Origin: Bacteroidales bacterium
Lineage (GTDB): Bacteria; Bacteroidota; Bacteroidia; Bacteroidales; Tenuifilaceae
DNA length: 12,679 nucleotides
Reading direction: 5' to 3'
Assembly (NCBI GenBank): GCA_008933525.1
Contig: WBUV01000048.1
Location: forward strand, 1-12,679
The notes under the pieces were generated by a model, which saw only the letters and a list, made by a program, of their open reading frames with translations, was not told where the DNA came from and searched no databases. The translations under genes were made by a program, and so were the position numbers. Shown piece after piece: positions 1,729 to 12,592 of the stretch. Numbering within the stretch: position 1 is the stretch's first letter; each line of letters opens with the position of its first letter.

Positions 1729-3084
1729 TTAGTAAACTGTATTTTCAGGATCCCAGTTGCACCAGTCGGTTGTCCAGTTTTGTGTTCCAAAGGCTCCTTT
1801 AAAGGAAACAACCTCAAAGAATGCAGGTAGACCTGTAAATGAAGCTCCTGTAAGTACTGGCGAGCCAGCTTGTGGCATAGGGTTAACATTGCCCCAGTTC
1901 CAAGCATTGGTAAGTTGAAGTCCAGTGTTTTCTGCAACTATAGTATTGTTTCCGTTTGTCCACATAGCTTCATACTGAGTTTGAGTTAAGGATGTGCCAT
2001 CAGTTTTTGCTTCAAAATTCTTAACGCAGCCAGCAAGTACAGAGTTTTTAATTGATGGGCCAGAAGTTGCATTGTAGTTTAACATTGAAGGACCTTCTAA
2101 TCGGATACCGATTGCAAAACCCGCGATAATTGAATTGTAAAGGTTAAGGTGAGTATTTCTTCTTAGTCTTAAACCGTACTTATGGTTAGGGTTTACACCA
2201 GTTTGGGTTTTTGTAGCATATGGGCCAAGTATTGTAATGTTGCTGAATTTTGCAGAGGTCAAAGGTGAGTTTGATGAACCATTTGCATCGTTATCGGATT
2301 CAAAACCATTGGAAGCATCCGATTTATCAGCTTCTGCTGGGCCACGTAGGATAAGACCAAACTGAACGTTTCCGCTGAATCCGTTGTCGGTGTCAAAATC
2401 ATCGTCACCACCACGGTACGATACAAGGTATTTAGCGTTTACTGTACCGCCAAAGAATTCGAATGAGTCATCGCGACCAAACGATACTTGAACGTACTCA
2501 ATGGTTGTGCCGCTACCAACGCCACCCATTGTTAAACCATTAATCTCGTTACCGCTTGTTACCTCAAACCCTGCAAACTCAATACGTACATAGCGAAGGA
2601 TACCAGAATTATCAGTTGCATCAGTTCCACCATAAACAGCACCTGTTCCACCTTCAATTTCGGCTTCGCCACCGGTTTGGTTGATAGGCGCTTTACCACA
2701 GATAATAATACCTGCCCAATCGCCTGGTTTGCGTTCACCAACTGGCTTATCGCTTGTAAAAACGATAGGTTTGTTTTGAGTTCCATCTGCAATAATTTTT
2801 CCGCCACGCTCAACAATTAAGCATGCTTTGGTATCGCTTAATCCTCTAATAACTGTACCAGGTTCAATTGTTAAGGTAACGCCGTTATTTACGTACACAT
2901 AACCATCCAAAACAATTGTGTCCTCTGCAGCCCAGGTTGTATTTTGGGTAATATCACCCGATACTGTTACTTTTTCGCCTTTTGGTTCTGCATCGTCATC
3001 CTTATCGCACGATACAAACGCACCACCCATAAGCATTAGGGCTAGTAAAAAACTTTTCGCTTTAATTAGGTTTCTCATTTTCAT
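1729..3084 (-). CDS. Surface-type lipoprotein with parallel beta-helix fold
   Basis: 451 residues. A signal peptide with lipobox FVSC puts the lipidated cysteine at residue 26. It is followed directly by DKDDD, an acidic run like the lipoprotein export signal that sends Bacteroidota lipoproteins to the outer face of the outer membrane. The body repeats short strand/turn units typical of a right-handed beta-helix (for example VTLTIEPGTVIRG at 69-81, then IIADGTQNKPIVFTS). Two striking conserved-looking loops are FGRDDSFEFFGG (202-213) and YRGGDDDFDTDNG (223-235); the acidic clusters could bind metal. The protein ends in WCNWDPENTVY. I recognise this as a Bacteroidota-wide family usually labelled hypothetical or misnamed 'multidrug transporter', often found near TonB receptors. 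Function is not established. Upstream is a five-box 11-bp array and a -7 element, so I infer control by the PhoB-like regulator and a role in scavenging a phosphorus source at the surface. A second ATG two codons in is an equally possible start. Confidence 0.85.
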   Translation of the reverse strand: MKMRNLIKAKSFLLALMLMGGAFVSCDKDDDAEPKGEKVTVSGDITQNTTWAAEDTIVLDGYVYVNNGVTLTIEPGTVIRGLSDTKACLIVERGGKIIADGTQNKPIVFTSDKPVGERKPGDWAGIIICGKAPINQTGGEAEIEGGTGAVYGGTDATDNSGILRYVRIEFAGFEVTSGNEINGLTMGGVGSGTTIEYVQVSFGRDDSFEFFGGTVNAKYLVSYRGGDDDFDTDNGFSGNVQFGLILRGPAEADKSDASNGFESDNDANGSSNSPLTSAKFSNITILGPYATKTQTGVNPNHKYGLRLRRNTHLNLYNSIIAGFAIGIRLEGPSMLNYNATSGPSIKNSVLAGCVKNFEAKTDGTSLTQTQYEAMWTNGNNTIVAENTGLQLTNAWNWGNVNPMPQAGSPVLTGASFTGLPAFFEVVSFKGAFGTQNWTTDWCNWDPENTVY

Positions 3085-3115: not shown

Positions 3116-3193
3116 CAAAAGTATATGACGCCATCATAGTACTAGCTAAGCAAAAATTACGCTTTCGTTACTTGTTTGTTAGGAGATTGTTAA
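3116..3193 (-). promoter_or_regulatory. Promoter with five-box 11-bp array (candidate Pho boxes) for the beta-helix lipoprotein
   Basis: On the plus strand, 5-mers recur every 11 bp: GCTAA (3145), ATTAC (3156), GTTAC (3167), GTTAG (3178) and GTTAA (3189). Read in the gene's direction these are TTAAC-like boxes leading to a perfect -7 element TACTTTTG at 3123-3116. The gap between the last box and the -7 element is 21 bp. An 11-bp direct-repeat period is the hallmark of PhoB/OmpR-family operators. Binding by the regulator at 7263 is inferred. Confidence 0.65.
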
Positions 3194-3234
3194 GAGGGGA
3201 TAATTTAAAATGTAGAATTAAAAAATGAAAAAAA

Positions 3235-3364
3235 TAGCCCCGAGTTTTAACTCAGGGATTAATGAAAAAGAATTAAAAGCGATGCACGTAAAGACGATTG
3301 TTTGAAATAACATTTAATAGTTGCATCGCAAAGGATTGATTTTGGTATGAAATAAACCGTAAAA
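3235..3364. repeat. Intergenic ~130-bp repeat, copy 1
   Basis: Collinear with copy 2 (270 bp further on) and clearly similar over about 130 bp. It opens with a hairpin CCCCGAG/CTCAGGG (one G-T pair, loop TTTTAA, 3238-3257). It then carries GAATTAAAAGCGATGCACG, an inverted repeat GCGATGCA (3279-3286) / TGCATCGC (3322-3329), and ends after TTTTGGTATGAAA. Differences from copy 2 are scattered substitutions and one-base shifts, so this is an older, diverged copy. No open frame is conserved in it. Confidence 0.8.
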
Positions 3365-3403
3365 CTCATAGACTCGATGTTATATCGCCCCGACTCACCC
3401 CAA

Positions 3404-3432
3404 CCCCTCTCTGCCTGACCGGCAAAGAGGGG
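3404..3432. repeat. REP-like hairpin between the two 130-bp repeats
   Basis: CCCCTCT and TGCC pair with GGCA and AGAGGGG around a TGACC loop, with a single C/A mismatch in the middle: an 11-bp stem. The preceding CACCCCAA and this GC-rich stem stand out from the AT-rich surroundings and resemble the short palindromic elements scattered between genes in many Bacteroidota. It has no T tail and follows no gene closely, so a terminator role is unlikely. Confidence 0.6.
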
Positions 3433-3482
3433 CAAGAGTTGTAGAGGATTGGAAATACTAAAATCGCATGTAAATAATTAAC

Positions 3483-3495
3483 GCCCCAACGGGGC
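3483..3495. repeat. Short GCCCC/GGGGC hairpin at the edge of repeat copy 2
   Basis: GCCCC (3483-3487) and GGGGC (3491-3495) form a 5-bp stem around AAC, nine bases before the start of repeat copy 2. Only copy 2 has it. Together with the hairpin at 3507-3526 it gives a double-hairpin arrangement, as seen in REP elements moved by REP-associated tyrosine transposases. That link is inferred from shape only. Confidence 0.45.
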
Positions 3496-3503
3496 AATAG
3501 CAC

Positions 3504-3637
3504 TAGCCCCGAGTTTCAACTCGGGGATTATTGACAAAAGAATTAAAAGCGATGCACGCAAAGGACATAGTTTGAAATGGGGTTGAATTGTTGCATCGCA
3601 ATGGATACATTTTGGTATGAAACAACCATTGTAAAAA
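3504..3637. repeat. Intergenic ~130-bp repeat, copy 2
   Basis: Copy 2 of the element at 3235. The opening hairpin is perfect here, CCCCGAG/CTCGGGG with loop TTTCAA (3507-3526). The inverted repeat GCGATGCA (3549-3556) / TGCATCGC (3592-3599) has the same 51-bp total span as in copy 1. The element ends just before the terminator of the gene at 3715. The whole 630-bp stretch from 3085 to 3714 holds no gene that I can support: only the lipoprotein promoter, these repeats and that terminator. Confidence 0.8.
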
Positions 3638-3652
3638 ATCATCTAAATACAC

Positions 3653-3688
3653 AAAAAAAATGAGCCAGAATGCATTGGCATCTGGCTC
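3653..3688 (-). terminator. Rho-independent terminator after the small carboxypeptidase-regulatory-like gene
   Basis: On the reverse strand a stem GAGCCAG/CTGGCTC continues, after a one-base bulge, into ATGC/GCAT with a four-base loop, and is followed by A and eight T residues (3660-3653). It lies 26 bp past the stop codon. This is the strongest terminator in the window. Confidence 0.9.
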
Positions 3689-3714
3689 CGAATAATTGTT
3701 AACCAAATCTATAT

Positions 3715-4074
3715 TTAGTCCTTTACAGGATTGAGTTCTACCTTAATTGTTCCATTGCAGGTTGTTGCATCAACTTTTACCTCCTGTGGATTGTACGATA
3801 TCAAATTTGCATTGATTGATACTGTTTGGCATCCCATTACGGTTGCGCTGAAATTGCCTTCAAAGTCGGTGTAAGTTGTGGTGTTATCAATTTTAACCGC
3901 TACGCCTGCAAGAGCTTCGCCAGTTTCCTTATCAACTACTTGTCCGCTAATTGTAAGTGCTGCAACTGAGGTTGAACTGCTTGTTGTGCTTTTATCATCA
4001 CCCTTAACATTTGCATTTACATTAACCGATACTGCTACTAGGGCTATAACTAAAATCTTGCTAATTGTTTTCAT
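3715..4074 (-). CDS. Small secreted protein with one carboxypeptidase-regulatory-like (CarboxypepD_reg) domain
   Basis: 119 residues. The signal peptide MKTISKILVIALVAVSVNVNA is followed by a polar Ser/Thr/Asp-rich linker (residues 23-38). From 41 to about 115 it is a single beta-sandwich domain: ISGQVVDKETGEALAGVAV, then TDFEGNFSATV, then SYNPQEVKV. This is the same domain type that starts the TonB receptor next door (residues 27-105 there), so the two are likely related. Cys82 and Cys106 could form a disulfide in the periplasm. With no enzyme or barrel attached, it probably binds a partner. It lies 163 bp after the receptor gene on the same strand, but an array of 11-bp repeats and a perfect -7 element lie in that gap, so it has its own promoter. 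It is likely a small periplasmic or cell-surface accessory of the receptor; that role is inference. Confidence 0.8.
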   Translation of the reverse strand: MKTISKILVIALVAVSVNVNANVKGDDKSTTSSSTSVAALTISGQVVDKETGEALAGVAVKIDNTTTYTDFEGNFSATVMGCQTVSINANLISYNPQEVKVDATTCNGTIKVELNPVKD

Positions 4075-4099
4075 CGTTTTTAATTTTTATTTCTTGATA

Positions 4100-4166
4100 C
4101 AAAAATAGACCCCGAACATTACCTGAATATTACACAAAAATGATTTAAATGTTAAGTTTAGGTTAA
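4100..4166 (-). promoter_or_regulatory. Promoter with 11-bp box array (candidate Pho boxes) for the small secreted protein
   Basis: On the plus strand, ATTAC (4118), ATTAC (4129), a non-matching slot at 4140, GTTAA (4151) and GTTAA (4162) all sit on one 11-bp grid. In the gene's direction they lead to a perfect -7 element TATTTTTG (4107-4100), 10 bp from the last box. This fits a PhoB-type operator in place of a -33 element. It also implies expression independent of read-through from the receptor gene. Confidence 0.65.
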
Positions 4167-4179
4167 GAGGTTTGAAGAA

Positions 4180-4207
4180 GTGACTGGTGATTAGTGACGA
4201 GTGACTA
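4180..4207. repeat. 7-bp tandem repeat, four units
   Basis: Four consecutive units GTGACTG, GTGATTA, GTGACGA and GTGACTA (consensus GTGAYKR) lie just past the end of the TonB receptor gene and before the box array of the next gene. No coding or hairpin role is apparent. Confidence 0.75.
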
Positions 4208-4237
4208 TTTGGGTTTCAACCAATCGATAATCATCAA

Positions 4238-7048
4238 TTAAAACTTTGCAGTTACACCAAAGCTAAACGATATTCCATCGGAACTACGCTTGTTATCTAA
4301 ATACATGCTTGCATTGCCATTGCTATCGAGTAAGGGGAAATAGGTGACACTTTTTTGGTTAAGCAAGTTTTTAATTCCAAACTTGAACTCAATTGAACTG
4401 TAGAATTCCTTGCTAACAGTTAAGTCCACTAGGTGTTTTTGCTTCTCTGGGATATGGGGTATGTTCTGATTTGCATTTTGGTTGGTTTTTCCAATGGTTA
4501 TTAATCTGTCGCCAATAACGTTATACTGAACAGAGAAGTTTATCTTACGTTTTTCGTTGCTATAGAATATTCCTGTATTAATTAGGAATGGCGATTGCCC
4601 TTGCATCTCTCTATCCTCGAAAATAGAGCCTTCGGGGAATATTACTTTACTGTAAATATAGGCAGCATTGGCAACAAGGTAAAAATCTTTAAGTAATTCA
4701 ATTGCCTCGAGCGATTTACGAAGTTCCACTTCAACTCCTAGGCTGGTTGCTTTGTTGGCATTGTTAAAAGTAAAGGTTGGACGATTACCTGCTTGTTTGT
4801 AGGTAGATTCGATGGTCGATTTAAAATCCTTATAGAATAAACCTACCGAGAAAGTTTCGCTTGAACTTGGATAAAACTCGTAGCGTAAATCGTAATTCCA
4901 TGTGTAAGCATTTTCAAGTTCTGTATTACCAACATAGTCGGCTTCATCTTCAAAATTATAGAAATAAAATGGTGCAATCTCCCTAAACTCTGGTCTGTTT
5001 ACCGATAGGCCAGTTGCCAAGCGGATTAAGTTCTTTTCGTTGAAGTTATAGGTTAGGTTTGCAGAGGGGAAAAGGTCAATATGATTCGATTCAAGGTTCA
5101 CAGCCCTGTTATAGCTATCGTAACCATCGAGTTGAAGGCTATTGTACTCAGCTCTAACACCCCCATAGAACTTTATTTTACTGGTGATATTTGTACTCAA
5201 AGCAACATAACCCGCCAAAAGCATATTGGTTGCATCGTAACTGTCGGATTTGCTAGTGGTTTCCTTGATTATGAATCCATCGGCAGAGGTGTTGATATTC
5301 TCGGGGCTGAAAATAGTTTCCACTGGCAGCCAAACCGACTCTGTGTAAGAAGAGTTTTTAGCGTATCCTAAAATTCTTGTATCAAAAACCCTGTGCTTGT
5401 ATTCGGAGTAAATACCTGTTTTAACTGAAGGTTGCCAGTTTCCAATTTTCAACTTTCGGTCGTAATTAACACCTAACGACGATATGTACTCGTTTAATCG
5501 CATAAAGAGTCGTCCGGCATCGCTTACAGAGGGTGTTAATCCAATTGAAGCGTAATAATCGCCATAGTGGGTAAGTAACTCTTCGCTTTGTAACGTTGTG
5601 CGGAGTTGTTTTAGGTCTGGTTCGTTCTTGCCCGAGTAGGAGAATCCTAAAACCCAATCAATTCGGTTCTTATCATCCTGTCCGTATTTATGCTCGCCAC
5701 CTAACTGACCGGAGTACGTTGTACGCGACATATACTTATCCTGATACGAACGAACCGTGTAACCCTCGTAGCCATTTAGTCCATTACGGATTATTGCCGT
5801 ATTCTTTCCGTTGATATTTAAAAGATTCCGGAACTCAATTTTGTTACCGTTTCCCAAAAAGAATGCCCAGTTGTGTAGTACTCCAATTTTGGTGCTTCTC
5901 GAAAAAGCGCTATCGGTGTAATTGTAATTGTATGGTGGTATATCGCCTAAGTTGAATTGCGCTTGGTAGCTTTTAAGCTCTTTTACATCAGAATTATTTG
6001 CAACTCCATAGTTGATATTGGTTATAGTACCAATTTGCTTGTTTCCTACCTGAAATCTTCTACCAAAATTTATGTTGATTTTTTGCTCAGGATATGCTGT
6101 TGCCTTTTTAGGAGCCCAGTTGCTGTTGAATTCTTTTCCCAAAGCTGCCAGTTGAGAGTTGGATAAACCTTTTAATGTAGTTGGAACGTTATCGGGCAGT
6201 GCTCTTTCGCCGTTATCAATACCCAACCAATCGTATTTTCCCTTGTTTATGAGTTGAAAGTTGGAGTAATCGTCCTCGGTGTTGTATGTGGTTGAGTATC
6301 CAATTTGGAAGAAATTTTTTTCGGGCATATTCTTGGTGAAAATCTTTATGAACCCACCAGTAAAATCGGCAGGTAATTCGGGCGATGGACTTTTTGCAAT
6401 TAGTATGTTGTCAATCATTGAGCTGGGAATAACATCGAACGAGAAGGCTTTCTGGTCGGTTTCGCTCGATGGGGTAGAGGCATTATTAACCCAAACACTA
6501 TTATAGCGTTGGTTCAATCCGCGAACCACCACAAACCTATCCTCAATAATCGAGATTCCAGGTACACGCTTAATTACTTCCGAGGCGTCCTTATCCTGGG
6601 TACGAGTAATTTGCTGTGCAGTAATTCCATTGGCAATAATATTGCTGGCTTTAATTGTGCTAATCATCGCAACATCGGTATTGCTACGCTTGGTTGCTGT
6701 AACAACAACACCTTCAATGGCGGTTGTTACCTCTTCCAAATCAACACTAATTACGGATGCTTTATTGGCTTCTACCTTTATTCCTTCAATGATAACTTGT
6801 TTGTACGAAATAAATGAAACCTGAACATTGTATGTTCCGGGGGTAAGATTTCCTAAAATAAATTTACCGTCGAAATCGGTTATTGTGCCATTGGTTGTTC
6901 CTTGTATTACTACTGTGGCACCAACAAGTGTTTCAGCCCTGAGTTTATCAACTACTACTCCCTCGATACTTCCTCGTTGGGCTAAGGCCGATAGGTTTAC
7001 TAAACAAAAAAGAAAAATGCCAATAGATTTAATTGTTTGCCTGCTCAT
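4238..7048 (-). CDS. TonB-dependent outer-membrane receptor (no SusD partner)
   Basis: 936 residues from the ATG at 7048. A longer frame from a TTG at 7066 is possible, but the ATG gives a clean signal peptide (MSRQTIKSIGIFLFCLVNLS, likely cut after ALA at residue 23). Order of parts: CarboxypepD_reg-like domain 27-105 (GTITDFDGKFILGNLTPGTY inside), linker with a TonB-box-like VVVTATKR (114-121), plug domain about 125-240 (ASEVIKRVPGISI, FVVVRGLNQRYN, DFTGGFIKI), then a long barrel to a terminal Phe (FGVTAKF). It imports a ligand across the outer membrane using TonB/ExbBD energy. No SusD-like lipoprotein lies beside it, so it is not a standard glycan SusCD pair. Its companions are the small secreted protein and the beta-helix lipoprotein, all with the same promoter boxes. 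It is divergent from the PhoB-like regulator, and 214 bp separate the two start codons. The substrate is unknown; a phosphorus-containing one is inferred from context. Confidence 0.93.
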   Translation of the reverse strand: MSRQTIKSIGIFLFCLVNLSALAQRGSIEGVVVDKLRAETLVGATVVIQGTTNGTITDFDGKFILGNLTPGTYNVQVSFISYKQVIIEGIKVEANKASVISVDLEEVTTAIEGVVVTATKRSNTDVAMISTIKASNIIANGITAQQITRTQDKDASEVIKRVPGISIIEDRFVVVRGLNQRYNSVWVNNASTPSSETDQKAFSFDVIPSSMIDNILIAKSPSPELPADFTGGFIKIFTKNMPEKNFFQIGYSTTYNTEDDYSNFQLINKGKYDWLGIDNGERALPDNVPTTLKGLSNSQLAALGKEFNSNWAPKKATAYPEQKININFGRRFQVGNKQIGTITNINYGVANNSDVKELKSYQAQFNLGDIPPYNYNYTDSAFSRSTKIGVLHNWAFFLGNGNKIEFRNLLNINGKNTAIIRNGLNGYEGYTVRSYQDKYMSRTTYSGQLGGEHKYGQDDKNRIDWVLGFSYSGKNEPDLKQLRTTLQSEELLTHYGDYYASIGLTPSVSDAGRLFMRLNEYISSLGVNYDRKLKIGNWQPSVKTGIYSEYKHRVFDTRILGYAKNSSYTESVWLPVETIFSPENINTSADGFIIKETTSKSDSYDATNMLLAGYVALSTNITSKIKFYGGVRAEYNSLQLDGYDSYNRAVNLESNHIDLFPSANLTYNFNEKNLIRLATGLSVNRPEFREIAPFYFYNFEDEADYVGNTELENAYTWNYDLRYEFYPSSSETFSVGLFYKDFKSTIESTYKQAGNRPTFTFNNANKATSLGVEVELRKSLEAIELLKDFYLVANAAYIYSKVIFPEGSIFEDREMQGQSPFLINTGIFYSNEKRKINFSVQYNVIGDRLITIGKTNQNANQNIPHIPEKQKHLVDLTVSKEFYSSIEFKFGIKNLLNQKSVTYFPLLDSNGNASMYLDNKRSSDGISFSFGVTAKF

Positions 7049-7105
7049 ATTTAGTTTTTTTTGCAATGTCTGAATTCACTGTTTCTTAAGATTTTTTTCA
7101 CACTG

Positions 7106-7161
7106 CAAAGTAAACTACTATATATGGGATCAGTTTTAAGGCTATGTTAAACTTTGGTTAA
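7106..7161 (-). promoter_or_regulatory. Promoter with 11-bp box array (candidate Pho boxes) for the TonB receptor
   Basis: Plus-strand boxes TTTAA (7135), GTTAA (7146) and GTTAA (7157) are 11 bp apart. In the gene's direction they precede TTACTTTG (7113-7106), which matches the -7 consensus except for one base. The gap is 21 bp, the same as for the lipoprotein and regulator promoters. The imperfect -7 element makes this the weakest core promoter of the group. Confidence 0.55.
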
Positions 7162-7189
7162 CCATTTTGTGTTATTATGCTGTATACAT

Positions 7190-7234
7190 TTAATGTTTTC
7201 TTAACTTAATATTTGCTATTTGTAAATAGTTTTG
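7190..7234 (+). promoter_or_regulatory. phoB: Promoter of the PhoB-like regulator with two candidate Pho boxes (autoregulation)
   Basis: TTAAT (7190) and TTAAC (7201) are 11 bp apart in the direction of transcription. They are followed after 21 bp by a perfect -7 element TAGTTTTG (7227-7234), 28 bp before the start codon. No TTTG sits at the normal -33 distance. The arrangement mirrors the receptor promoter on the other strand, so the regulator probably controls both sides of this 214-bp gap. Confidence 0.5.
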
Positions 7235-7262
7235 TAAACTTACTTTTTAAAGACAAAACACT

Positions 7263-7955
7263 ATGGATTTATCGAAATTCAAGATTCTAGTAGTTGATGA
7301 TGAGCCCGATATTATTGAATTTTTGAGTTACAATCTCAAAAAGGAGGGCTTTACCATAAAAACAGCATCAACAGGTCGTCAGGCAATTGATATGGCTGTT
7401 TCCTTTAATCCGCACCTAATTCTGCTCGATGTTATGATGCCCGAGATGGATGGCATTGAAACGTGTGGGGAGTTAAGGGCGAATCCTATAACCAAGGATA
7501 TGCTTATTGCGTTTCTTACCGCACGTAACGAGGATTATAGCCAGATTGCGGGTTTTGATGCTGGCGGCGATGATTATATTTCGAAACCAATTAAACCAAA
7601 GGTTCTAATCAGTAGAATAAAAGCATTGTTAAAACGTGCTGGCTCGTTGGACGATGGCATTGATACAAGGGATGAAATTCCTCAATCGGGTTTGGTTATT
7701 GATAAAGAACGTTATGTTGTTTACCTTGATGGAAATGAGGTGATTCTACCAAAAAAAGAGTTCGAATTGCTTGCCTTGCTTCATAGCAAACCTCAAAAGG
7801 TTTTTACTCGTGATGAGATATACCAGGCCATTTGGGGCGATGAAATTGTGGTGGGCGATAGAACAATTGATGTTCATATTCGTAAACTGCGCGAGAAACT
7901 AGGCGAGGATTATATTCGTACCGTTAAGGGGGTTGGGTATAAGTTTATGAATTAG
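7263..7955 (+). CDS. phoB: OmpR/PhoB-family response regulator
   Basis: 230 residues, typical for the family. Receiver domain 1-125: acidic pair Asp12/Asp13, phosphoacceptor Asp56 in LILLDVMMPEMDG, Thr86, and Lys108 in SKPIKPK. Winged-helix DNA-binding domain about 144-228, with FELLALL, FTRDEIYQAIWG, recognition helix RTIDVHIRKLREKLG and the closing hairpin IRTVKGVGYKF. All phosphorylation residues are intact. The best family match I can judge is the Bacteroidota PhoB group. Supporting this, 11-bp direct-repeat boxes occur before its own gene, the receptor, the secreted protein, the lipoprotein and the phosphate transporter. A histidine kinase normally follows a PhoB gene; here a hemerythrin follows instead, so its kinase must be encoded elsewhere. 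The name phoB is inferred from family and context. Confidence 0.88.
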   Translation: MDLSKFKILVVDDEPDIIEFLSYNLKKEGFTIKTASTGRQAIDMAVSFNPHLILLDVMMPEMDGIETCGELRANPITKDMLIAFLTARNEDYSQIAGFDAGGDDYISKPIKPKVLISRIKALLKRAGSLDDGIDTRDEIPQSGLVIDKERYVVYLDGNEVILPKKEFELLALLHSKPQKVFTRDEIYQAIWGDEIVVGDRTIDVHIRKLREKLGEDYIRTVKGVGYKFMN

Positions 7956-7971
7956 TTTTTTATGTGGATTG

Positions 7972-7995
7972 TTGGAGATTTGGAGTAGTGGAGTG
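7972..7995. repeat. 8-bp tandem repeat, three units (locus A)
   Basis: Three consecutive 8-bp units, TTGGAGAT, TTGGAGTA and GTGGAGTG, lie between the regulator and hemerythrin genes. The same unit recurs at 10862-10885. Confidence 0.7.
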
Positions 7996-8033
7996 TGCTA
8001 TTTTGCTTTGAAAGTTATTTAAATATAATAAAC

Positions 8034-8441
8034 ATGGGTATTGTAGATTGGAATAACAATTTCAGCGTTGCTGTTGATAGCATCGATAATGATCATAAGC
8101 AGTTGATTAGTATAATTAATCAACTTTTTAATGCTATGACAAAGGGTGAGGGGGCAAAGGTTTTATCGCCATTAGTTGATGAGTTGTATAAGTACACAAT
8201 TTATCATTTTAACAGGGAGGAAACCTACTTTAGAATGACCAATTACCCTAATGCTCTCCAGCATAATCAGGAGCATGCTATGTTTATTCAAAAGGTAAAT
8301 GAGTTTAAGGCTAAGGTTAGTTCTGGTAAGTTAGATTTTTCGCCCGATATGCTTAACTTTCTACGCGATTGGTTACTGCATCATATTACCAATGTTGATG
8401 CAATGTATGCAGAGCATTTTAAGAAGTATGGAATAAAATAG
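8034..8441 (+). CDS. Bacteriohemerythrin
   Basis: 135 residues from the ATG at 8034, which gives the usual hemerythrin N-terminus MGIVDWNNNFSV; a frame from a GTG 39 bp upstream would add 13 atypical residues. The di-iron ligand set is complete: His21 (NDHKQL), His58 and Glu62 (HFNREE), His77 and His81 (HNQEH), His117 and Asp122 (HHITNVD). It is a cytoplasmic four-helix bundle expected to bind O2 reversibly or to sense oxygen or NO. No output domain is attached, so it is a single-domain carrier or sensor. It starts 78 bp after the PhoB-like gene with no terminator between, so read-through is likely, and it ends at a strong hairpin. Its link to phosphate control is unclear. Confidence 0.93.
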   Translation: MGIVDWNNNFSVAVDSIDNDHKQLISIINQLFNAMTKGEGAKVLSPLVDELYKYTIYHFNREETYFRMTNYPNALQHNQEHAMFIQKVNEFKAKVSSGKLDFSPDMLNFLRDWLLHHITNVDAMYAEHFKKYGIK

Positions 8442-8460
8442 TTTTCGATTTTTTGATAAA

Positions 8461-8494
8461 GAGAAAGGGAGCAATATTGCTCCCTTTCTCTTTT
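8461..8494. terminator. Bidirectional terminator between hemerythrin and the phosphate transporter
   Basis: A perfect 30-bp palindrome (8461-8490; arms GAGAAAGGGAGCAAT and its complement) is followed by TTTTG on the plus strand. On the reverse strand it is followed by TTTATCAAAAAA. It lies between two convergent genes, 19 bp past the hemerythrin stop and 16 bp past the transporter stop, and can serve both. Confidence 0.9.
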
Positions 8495-8506
8495 GTGTAT
8501 CAGTTA

Positions 8507-10744
8507 TTAATCAATATTGTTAAGAATGAAATCCCTTTGAGCTTTCATTAGATTAACGGTGTGAAGCATAATATTCTTAATCTCGTTCAGAAGTCCTAGG
8601 TAAAGTACGCTGTTACGTGTACCCGTTTCACTCTGTTTAATACGCTTTACCTGTTTTTTGCGGGCATCGTTCACTATTTCAAGAATATCCTGCTGTTTCT
8701 TAATTGCATCGGGAACGCCAGTGTAATCGTTCTCCTTAATCATCTTCATAATATCATCGAAGAATACCGATATATTTTCAGAGATTTCTTTTAACTCCGA
8801 AGCTTGTGCTTTAGTTAAGCCTTTGTGTTGATTATCGATATGCTGTAAACTAGGCGACACTACAAATGTTAATGAGTGGGCAATTTCGCGTAAGTAATCA
8901 ATAACCTGTATGTAGTAGTGCCCTGTTTCAATTGAATCGGCTTCAAGTTTTTTAAGTACGGTGTAAACATTGTACTTAAGTTTTTTAGCCTCGGCGTTAA
9001 GTTCCTCTACATCTTTATTTACCTGCTTAAGCGTTTTACGGTCTTCGTTGGTTAATCCTTCAACAGTTTTTGTGAAGGTTTTCAAAACATCCTTTAACGA
9101 TTTTGTTACCTCTTTGGTGCATTTTTTAACAACACTATCGTCGGTAGCTAGTATTTCTTCATCAACTTTAGCGGCTTCAACTTTCTTTTTGTGTAGTAGG
9201 TGCGATTTAATAAGCAATCCAACCGCAATAGCAACAAGAATAATTAGAGCTGGTGTTTTTCCGTAATATAATGCTGCTGCCATTATAAATGCCATAGTGA
9301 ATGTTACAAAGGCGGTGAAGAACCATCCTGAGATTACTGTTAAAACACCCGTAATACGGTAAACAGCACTCTCGCGTCCCCAGGCTTTGTCGCTAAGCGA
9401 TGTACCCATAGCAACCATAAAAGTTACGTAAGTAGTTGAGAGAGGTAGTTTAAGTGATGTTGCCGAGCTAATTAGAATACTCGATACCACAAGGTTTACC
9501 GATGCGCGGATAAGGTCAAATGCAGGTGCATCGTTTGGATTTTTGTATTTAGGTGCCTTGCTGGTATCAAATCTACTTTCAAGAAACTTTTTTATAAACT
9601 TTGGCATTATTCCGCCTGTATTGTTGCTAAGTCCTCTCATTGCTCTTACAAGTGTCCTCGAGAACTGGGTGCTTCCAAAGCGCTCCACGCCAGCATCCTG
9701 ACGGGAAAGTCCTACCTCAGTTTCAGTAACAGTTCTTGCTTTACGTGAGGTCCATAACGTTATAACCATTATCAATCCTGCAATAAATAGATATATAAAG
9801 TTAGTTGTTACAGGCCCCGCTAAATCTGTCATAAGGAGTTGGTCTGGGGCTACACCAGGGTTAGCTAGATGGATTTGGTATGACTTTAAACCTGCAAGAG
9901 ATACTCCTATAAAGTTAACAAGATCGTTTCCGGCAAATGAGAGAGCTAACGCAAATGTTCCCATTAGCACCACAAATCGCAAAATATTAAGTTTGAAAAC
10001 CGATATTAGTATTTGGAAAATTACAGCCCATACAAGAAAACTGTAGAAAAGAATAAGAACGGTATGTTCGTTAATGTAATTTAAAACAGATTCATTTATA
10101 ATTGAAGCACCTTGAACTCCTTTCATTACAATAAAATATGTAATTGCTGTAAGCGCAAATCCGCCCCAAATACTACCTACGTAATTAATGCTCTTTTTAT
10201 AGTTGAAAGTGAATAGAAAACGAGCAAAGTATTGTACAACGGTTCCCACTACAAATGCAACCACAACTGATATTAAAATACCCGAGATAATTGCCAGCGC
10301 TTTTCCGCTGTTGATATAGTTGCCAAGGTTGCTTAACGATTCATCGTTACCCATTATTTTGAATATGGAAACCGCTACAGCAGAGCCAAGCAATTCGAAT
10401 ACTAAAGATACCGTTGTTGAGGTTGGCAATCCAAAGGTGTTGAAAAAGTCCAAAACAATGACATCGGTTAGCATTACGGCTAGGAATATCACCATAATTT
10501 CGCTCATGTAGAAGTTCTGCGGGTAGAACACCCCTTTACGCGCTACCTCCATCATGCCGCTGGAGAAGAATGAACCAACTAAAACTCCAGCCGATGCAAC
10601 CAGTAAAATCCAGTGGCGGGGCGCAACTTTTGAACCGATTGACGAGTTAAGGAAGTTAACCGCGTCGTTTGCAACGCCAACCACCAAGTCGGACATTGCG
10701 AGTAGAATAAGAATTACAACTGCAATTAGGTAATAGGTTTCCAT
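8507..10744 (-). CDS. pit: PiT-family inorganic phosphate transporter with C-terminal PhoU-like domain
   Basis: 745 residues. The membrane part (about 1-515) has both halves of the PiT signature: VANDAVNF at 24-31 and AGNDLVNF at 271-278, plus the paired GLPTSTT (105-111) and KLPLSTTYVTF (432-442). About ten to twelve hydrophobic segments are visible, with a long basic cytoplasmic loop near 333-408. Family members take up Pi with H+ or Na+. After residue 515 follow about 230 mostly helical, charged residues (TKSLKDVLKTFTKTVEGL, YLREIAHSL at 617-625, LLNEIKNIMLHTVNL at 718-732) that resemble PhoU three-helix bundles. Plain PiT proteins are near 330-500 residues, so this is a fusion with a probable regulatory domain. 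Upstream is the longest 11-bp box array in the window, consistent with phosphate-dependent expression. The gene ends at the shared terminator at 8461. Confidence 0.93.
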   Translation of the reverse strand: METYYLIAVVILILLAMSDLVVGVANDAVNFLNSSIGSKVAPRHWILLVASAGVLVGSFFSSGMMEVARKGVFYPQNFYMSEIMVIFLAVMLTDVIVLDFFNTFGLPTSTTVSLVFELLGSAVAVSIFKIMGNDESLSNLGNYINSGKALAIISGILISVVVAFVVGTVVQYFARFLFTFNYKKSINYVGSIWGGFALTAITYFIVMKGVQGASIINESVLNYINEHTVLILFYSFLVWAVIFQILISVFKLNILRFVVLMGTFALALSFAGNDLVNFIGVSLAGLKSYQIHLANPGVAPDQLLMTDLAGPVTTNFIYLFIAGLIMVITLWTSRKARTVTETEVGLSRQDAGVERFGSTQFSRTLVRAMRGLSNNTGGIMPKFIKKFLESRFDTSKAPKYKNPNDAPAFDLIRASVNLVVSSILISSATSLKLPLSTTYVTFMVAMGTSLSDKAWGRESAVYRITGVLTVISGWFFTAFVTFTMAFIMAAALYYGKTPALIILVAIAVGLLIKSHLLHKKKVEAAKVDEEILATDDSVVKKCTKEVTKSLKDVLKTFTKTVEGLTNEDRKTLKQVNKDVEELNAEAKKLKYNVYTVLKKLEADSIETGHYYIQVIDYLREIAHSLTFVVSPSLQHIDNQHKGLTKAQASELKEISENISVFFDDIMKMIKENDYTGVPDAIKKQQDILEIVNDARKKQVKRIKQSETGTRNSVLYLGLLNEIKNIMLHTVNLMKAQRDFILNNID

Positions 10745-10766
10745 ATTATCAATATTAATTTCAGCG

Positions 10767-10845
10767 CAAAAATACCTCAGCTTATGTTAACATTAATAAA
10801 ATGATGGGTTATGTTTCTATTAATCTAATGTTAAGTTAATGTTAA
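10767..10845 (-). promoter_or_regulatory. Promoter with extended 11-bp box array (candidate Pho boxes) for the phosphate transporter
   Basis: Plus-strand boxes on one 11-bp grid: GTTAA (10786), an AT-rich non-match (10797), GTTAT (10808), ATTAA (10819), GTTAA (10830) and GTTAA (10841). In the gene's direction they lead to a perfect -7 element TATTTTTG (10774-10767), 11 bp after the last box and 22 bp before the start codon. This is the best-supported array, and it sits in front of a gene whose phosphate role is clear. Confidence 0.7.
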
Positions 10846-12500: not shown

Positions 12501-12592
12501 AATTATTGGATTGATATGAATTCTTAAGGATGATTAAACCTAATCAACATCAATGTGTCAATTCTATGTAGAATGATTTTAAAATAGTTTTT

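Follow-up and report, generated by a model that had tools for sequence, protein, structure and literature searches.

Phased TTAAC box arrays at five promoters of a Tenuifilaceae contig as probable Pho boxes of a local Pho regulon

Five promoters on a 12,679-nucleotide stretch of DNA from a Bacteroidales bacterium of the Tenuifilaceae (assembly GCA_008933525.1, contig WBUV01000048.1; the whole stretch is referred to here as the window) carry head-to-tail arrays of a TTAAC-type box with a period of 11 base pairs (bp). They serve the genes for a lipoprotein, a small secreted protein, a TonB-dependent receptor, a PhoB-type response regulator and a PiT phosphate transporter. We consider it very probable that these arrays are the Pho boxes of a Pho regulon, because the arrays and their gene neighbourhoods are conserved, because a scan that starts from the motif leads back to phosphate genes and because the arrays keep a helical phase rule with respect to the -7 element. 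The source is a draft genome of 3.39 Mb that is 85% complete and in which the window is contig 170. The arrays and -7 elements, with boxes read on each gene's own strand, are as follows.

3145..3193, minus strand: lipoprotein array; TTAAC, CTAAC, GTAAC, GTAAT, TTAGC in 11-bp steps from 3193 downwards
3116..3123, minus strand: lipoprotein -7 element, TACTTTTG; 70 bp from the first box
4118..4166, minus strand: small-gene array; TTAAC, TTAAC, ATCAT, GTAAT, GTAAT in 11-bp steps from 4166
4100..4107, minus strand: small-gene -7 element, TATTTTTG; 59 bp from the first box
7135..7161, minus strand: TonB receptor array; TTAAC, TTAAC, TTAAA in 11-bp steps from 7161
7106..7113, minus strand: TonB receptor -7-like element, TTACTTTG; one mismatch, 48 bp from the first box
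7190..7205, plus strand: phoB array; two boxes, TTAAT and TTAAC, from 7190; weak
7227..7234, plus strand: phoB -7 element, TAGTTTTG; 37 bp from the first box
10786..10845, minus strand: PiT array of six units; TTAAC, TTAAC, TTAAT, ATAAC, TTTTA, TTAAC from 10845
10767..10774, minus strand: PiT -7 element, TATTTTTG; 71 bp from the first box

A first-pass annotation of this DNA had placed boxes in 11-bp steps at these five positions; all of them are present and we confirm the arrays as a real observation, with the boxes proximal to the promoter being degenerate in several cases. It had also assigned a TAnnTTTG-type -7 element to all five, which holds exactly for four of the octamers, picked by hand, but only with one mismatch for the TonB receptor. 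Its further claim that position on the helix is kept across the five promoters is borne out by the distances from first box to -7 element, which equal 11n+4 at four promoters (70, 59, 48 and 37 bp) and 11n+5 at the PiT promoter (71 bp).

With one mismatch allowed, a two-box pattern matches the window 8 times against 2.5-2.6 expected, a count reached by 1/200 and 3/200 shuffles. A more specific measure came from a 27-bp matrix trained solely on PiT promoters of relatives, using the 23 relatives' sites with at least 12/15 core matches from 30 scored loci (own genome plus 29), and this matrix extends the repeat unit to TTAACATTnnn. In the window it gave 32.1 bits to the PiT array (10819-10845), 18.8 to the TonB receptor array (7135), 18.5 to the small-gene array (4140-4166) and 13.1 to the lipoprotein array (3167-3193), so that four of the five arrays are its top window sites, and a second, overlapping PiT site scored 13.3 bits. 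Five window sites reach at least 13 bits, whereas over 200 shuffles the number of such sites averaged 0.10 and never exceeded 3. The upstream region of the LytS/LytT genes, described earlier as lacking an array, is indeed without one, the best matrix site nearby scoring 3.4 bits at 12557. Across the whole genome the bare two-box core gave 33 exact matches versus 18 for the reversed pattern and was rejected as a genome-wide criterion, being too weak alone; when up to 3 mismatches were allowed, the extended pattern of three boxes gave 5 matches versus 2 for its control.

A scan of related genomes with such a matrix, which the first-pass annotation had proposed, found the arrays kept at PiT genes and rare at neighbouring ones. 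The three-box core exceeds dinucleotide shuffles (p<=0.05) at 23/30 PiT promoters, that is in 22/29 relatives and in the genome itself. We then scored the matrix over 300 bp upstream of genes, on the gene's strand, in 20 stretches from relatives, with the threshold set at the 95th percentile of the upstream regions of 131 other genes, taken as controls. Because some phoB matches were the array of the divergent receptor read backwards, a stricter recount removed sites scoring higher on the opposite strand. Sites above threshold were found, in the first count and the recount respectively, upstream of PiT (11/12 and 11/12, sites that overlap the training set of the matrix), phoB (15/19 and 14/19), the TonB receptor (10/12 and 9/12), the small gene (8/8 and 8/8) and the lipoprotein (8/11 and 7/11). 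For the neighbours the corresponding figures were 1/9 and 0/9 for SDR, 1/7 and 1/7 for MORN, 0/14 and 1/14 for hemerythrin, and 1/9 and 1/9 for each of LytT and LytS. These counts are not independent, since many of the genomes are close kin. The pairing of PhoB with PiT is seen again in further families of the order, often together with a TonB receptor or porin-like gene and the lipoprotein and sometimes with a histidine kinase.

That the arrays might be chance repeats in AT-rich intergenic DNA draws some colour from the two-box core, which exceeds its reversed-pattern control only about twofold in the genome. Against it stand the shuffle, neighbour-gene and motif-first tests and the phase control, which speak for the PiT, TonB-receptor and small-gene arrays in particular and are weakest for the phoB array alone, and we regard chance as scarcely credible. 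Both chance and an explanation by shared neighbours were set aside on the shuffle, upstream-region and phase-control tests.

The phase rule extends to the relatives. There 63 promoters carry an array of at least 8 bits, 40 of them with TAnnTTTG within 130 bp, and 35/40 fall in phases 4-5 of 11; with four backward readings removed this becomes 34/37 (37 of 59 promoters having the element) and, with near-duplicates removed as well, 27/30. An apparent array-to-element spacing of 92 bp vanished once backward-read arrays were removed. In the motif-first set described below, among the matches listed, TAnnTTTG lies at 27-110 bp in 32/75 Bacteroidota-type loci and 19/32 are in phases 4-5 (p=2.6e-7 against 2/11); L191 and L219 at least are loci shared with the PiT set. 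Occurrences of TAnnTTTG in flanking DNA showed no excess (upstream 2/16; 160-700 bp downstream 4/24), and a TATAAT-like element in 26 loci of other phyla showed no clear phase. Beyond the three boxes weaker boxes stay in phase, with a mean core match of 2.24/5 compared with 1.2-1.7 in other phases. The set measured here comprised 39 promoters, freed of duplicates and selected for phases 4-5, and includes one backward reading.

The first-pass annotation had suggested that the array replaces the -33 element. This fits the closest arrays at most, which abut the promoter in that way with their three boxes ending 10 bp from the -7 element; most three-box arrays end 21-22, 32-33 or 43-44 bp away. 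A TTG starting 22-26 bp upstream of the -7 element occurs in only 5/33 phased promoters whose array starts at least 48 bp upstream of it, and therefore the -33 element seems mostly to be absent rather than overlapped. The F. johnsoniae promoter has a -7 consensus, no -33 element having been identified in it (PMC7366714). Many arrays begin 59-71 bp from the -7 element and a few 81-91 bp, and this would suit a role in repression, or a response to a signal other than phosphate. We judge such a role very unlikely, given that the helical phasing and the mostly missing -33 element suit activation and that comparable genes of F. johnsoniae are induced by phosphate depletion (PMC8115612).

Searching GTDB genomes for the exact motif TTAACATTNNNTTAACATTNNNTTAA without regard to gene content returned at least 117 stretches, and of these not one falls inside a retained open reading frame of at least 80 codons. 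Among the matches listed, to which the following figures refer, 90 are followed within 400 bp by the start of a gene and phosphate-transport families account for 38/90 of these genes, a figure that sums the family counts with each protein assumed to be counted once and that stands without a matched control scan. Phosphate-transport genes generally make up a small fraction of a genome. The first 62 downstream genes included PHO4 (7), Porin_O_P (6), PBP_like_2 (5), PstC (5), DUF47 (3) and Na/Pi cotransporter (2) proteins, and the remaining 28 included PHO4 (5), DUF47 (2), PBP_like_2 (1), Na/Pi (1) and PstC (1). PstC was checked individually at L174, L223, L224, L239, L240 and L280, and PstS at L192 (partial), L210, L235 and L247. 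Three-box arrays lie 5' of pstC or pstS in Firmicutes and 5' of pstC in a Dehalococcoidia genome, and in a cyanobacterium an array adjoins pstS in reverse orientation with pstS on its other side, a case outside the 38. As the TTAAC core is found in these Firmicutes and Dehalococcoidia genes and in cyanobacterial SphR boxes, the earlier proposal of a Bacteroidota-specific Pho box has to be dropped. In 14 of the genomes from which motif-scan loci come, the lipoprotein has a relative in 14/14 and there is a close PhoB in 13/14, and matrix sites lie 5' of the lipoprotein or phoB gene in Maribacter stanieri, Arenibacter, Sphingobacterium and Solitalea among others, though not in all genomes. An aldehyde dehydrogenase gene lies 3' of the array in three loci (e.g. 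L171), and in two Oribacterium genomes (L193, L242) the array is flanked by an OmpR-type regulator gene and the gene of an RND adaptor rather than by a phosphate gene.

In composition the arrays, 11-bp head-to-tail repeats 5' of phosphate-acquisition genes, have the marks of Pho boxes, which in general are 11-nucleotide direct repeats (PMC4415409). The cyanobacterial SphR box, CTTAACCT repeated in tandem at least three times with a linker of 3 bp (PMC1906773), shares with them the TTAAC core, the 11-bp period, the direct repeats and the place 5' of phosphate genes; unlike that box, which belongs to a different phylum, the arrays described here are tied to a Bacteroidota -7 element in fixed helical phase and at variable distance. 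The E. coli Pho box is of the CTGTCAT type, with two 11-nucleotide direct repeats 10 bp upstream of the -10 element (PMC4415409, PMC1906773). It resembles our arrays in its 11-bp head-to-tail repeats, its PhoB-type regulator (here a putative one) and the 10 bp between the closest arrays and the -7 element, and differs in the sequence of the box and in that most of our arrays end farther away.

The PhoP box of B. subtilis reportedly consists of TTAACA-type direct repeats. Its core and period are very similar to those of our arrays, while its sigma factor and spacing rules differ.

Within the phylum, the pstC promoter is bound by PhoB in B. fragilis, where a phosphate permease, the pst genes and one of the porins depend on that regulator (PMC3547664). 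When F. johnsoniae is depleted of phosphate, it induces PhoB and also two products of genes adjoining phoB, a TonB transporter and a hypothetical lipoprotein (PMC8115612). Genes reported for the PhoRB and PhoBR regulons of these species include those for a permease, a porin, a TonB transporter and a lipoprotein, and the regulons are likened to the present system by gene description. In the available parts of these reports no binding sequence is given, the terms motif, binding site and consensus being absent from the former and Pho box and motif from the latter. Nor, among the titles and opening lines of abstracts that were listed from the open-licence literature on Pho boxes or PhoB in Bacteroidota, was any paper found to define a Bacteroidota Pho box.

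A number of results weigh against reading the arrays as Pho boxes, and these concern the sites, the genes and the regulator. Seven of the 30 PiT promoters have no significant array (L049, L054, L055 with p=0.055, L058, L059, L061 and L062), exact TAnnTTTG is missing in 22/59 array promoters of relatives and the phoB array taken alone scores only 7.5 bits, the highest same-strand matrix site 5' of phoB being the TonB receptor array in backward reading. Sites of at least 10 bits occur in only 4/30 PstS upstream regions, which were dropped as a test set, having few arrays; the genome itself, at its 85% completeness, gave no PBP_like_2 match. No array was found in the 300 bp scored in 10/16 porin-orthologue rows, in two of which (L161, L164) the wrong frame had been chosen and the locus does contain an array. 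In the motif-first set 52/90 downstream genes were not assigned to phosphate transport; three of them encode aldehyde dehydrogenases and two encode efflux adaptors. The B. fragilis permease is not listed as phosphate-responsive in the wild type and a second porin falls (PMC3547664), and OprP of F. johnsoniae is not induced (PMC8115612). The regulator encoded at 7263 has receiver and winged-helix Trans_reg_C domains and its best NCBIfam models are PhoB, yet its scores fall under the cut-offs (NF053854 PhoB, 214.7 bits with a cut-off of 270; TIGR02154, 200.1 bits with a cut-off of 296.2), which is why it is named PhoB-type.

The last of these points concerns another OmpR-family system of the same genome. 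At 5070-5096 of locus L031 (G000:C291) a perfect TTAAC triple lies between a 237-residue secreted protein and an RprX/RprY-like system, 49 bp from TAnnTTTG and in phase. It is kept in 6/7 loci (own included) 5' of the gene beside the RprY-like regulator. This regulator scores 233.2 bits where its cut-off is 370, and it is adjoined by a kinase in 6/7 loci. The TTAAC core may therefore be common to other OmpR-family regulators, and the core alone is no proof of PhoB. With this triple and the two Oribacterium arrays beside an OmpR-type regulator in mind, the arrays of the window could be sites of another regulator of the family, such as the RprY-like one, or be shared by several, with PhoB merely a neighbour. 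We think this unlikely, as the extended unit TTAACATT is strongly linked to phosphate-transport genes across phyla and the array genes are found near phoB and PiT in more than one family. The assignment to PhoB draws on gene content and neighbourhood as well as on the extended unit. Taken overall the interpretation of the first-pass annotation is partly supported; its central proposal of a local Pho regulon, in which 11-bp boxes run head to tail next to the gene of a PhoB-type regulator, is upheld by the sequence tests.

If the arrays are Pho boxes, we infer that phosphate shortage would lead a PhoR-like kinase, for which a candidate is encoded elsewhere in the genome, to phosphorylate the PhoB-type regulator. 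The candidate (G000:C220:3112-4143) is 51% identical to the kinase adjoining PhoB and PiT in genome G056, its NCBIfam matches are below cut-off as well, and it may be the partner of the regulator. The phosphorylated regulator would align head to tail along the TTAACATTnnn units, nucleating at the strong distal boxes and then spreading over the weaker in-phase boxes, and would assist RNA polymerase in opening promoters equipped with a -7 element but in most cases lacking a -33 element. Its putative targets are the phosphate transporter, the receptor of the outer membrane along with the lipoprotein and the small secreted protein that accompany it, and the phoB gene; a porin-like gene outside the window is an apparent further one. 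The distance of the array to the -7 element would be variable, yet in near-whole helical turns. Tentatively, and with slightly less than even confidence, we suggest that PhoB of Bacteroidota activates from arrays at several whole-turn steps (37, 48, 59, 70 and rarely 81 bp) through a chain of regulators; such flexibility could arise because the chain nucleates on the distal strong boxes and grows along the weak in-phase boxes to the polymerase.

Judged from its upstream region, the porin-like gene is probably one more target of the regulator. At 4192-4238 of locus L032 (G000:C450) four TTAAC boxes lie 5' of a 371-residue porin-like protein lacking a Pfam match, and TATTTTTG stands 10 bp past the last TTAAC box. 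In two relatives, G013 and G020, the porin orthologue is interrupted by stops (L162, L165, L168-L170).

The window encodes an SDR enzyme, a MORN protein, the lipoprotein, the 119-residue CarboxypepD_reg protein, the TonB receptor, the PhoB-type regulator, a hemerythrin protein, the PiT transporter and a LytT/LytS pair. The genes that concern us here are as follows.

1729..3084, minus strand: lipoprotein gene; secreted, ~450 residues, signal sequence and lipobox cysteine recognised by eye
3715..4074, minus strand: small gene; 119-residue CarboxypepD_reg-like secreted protein
4238..7066, minus strand: TonB-dependent receptor gene; CarboxypepD_reg plus Plug domains
7263..7955, plus strand: phoB gene; PhoB-type OmpR-family response regulator
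8034..8441, plus strand: hemerythrin-domain protein gene; immediately 3' of phoB, without an array of its own
8507..10744, minus strand: PiT phosphate transporter gene; PHO4, with a C-terminal PhoU-like domain

The lipoprotein had no match in Pfam or NCBIfam, a profile search found no relative of it in the PDB and a single-sequence structure model was uninformative (mean predicted local distance difference test score, pLDDT, of 30); it is conserved beside PhoB and a TonB receptor or porin. The TonB receptor likely starts at the ATG near 7048, where the orthologue in L099 begins. The hemerythrin-domain gene directly follows phoB in many relatives too. An intergenic element is present in two imperfect copies (82-83%) at 3235-3355 and 3504-3625, both starting near a palindrome of the type CCCCGAG...CTCGGGG.

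If the arrays act as proposed, the five promoters of the window would form a natural ladder of the whole-turn rule. A defined box (TTAACATTnnn, in about three units phased with TAnnTTTG) would permit phosphate regulons of Bacteroidota to be predicted from sequence, and the phase-locked and distance-flexible layout would offer a clean test of how chains of OmpR-family regulators contact a polymerase that uses unusual -7 promoters.

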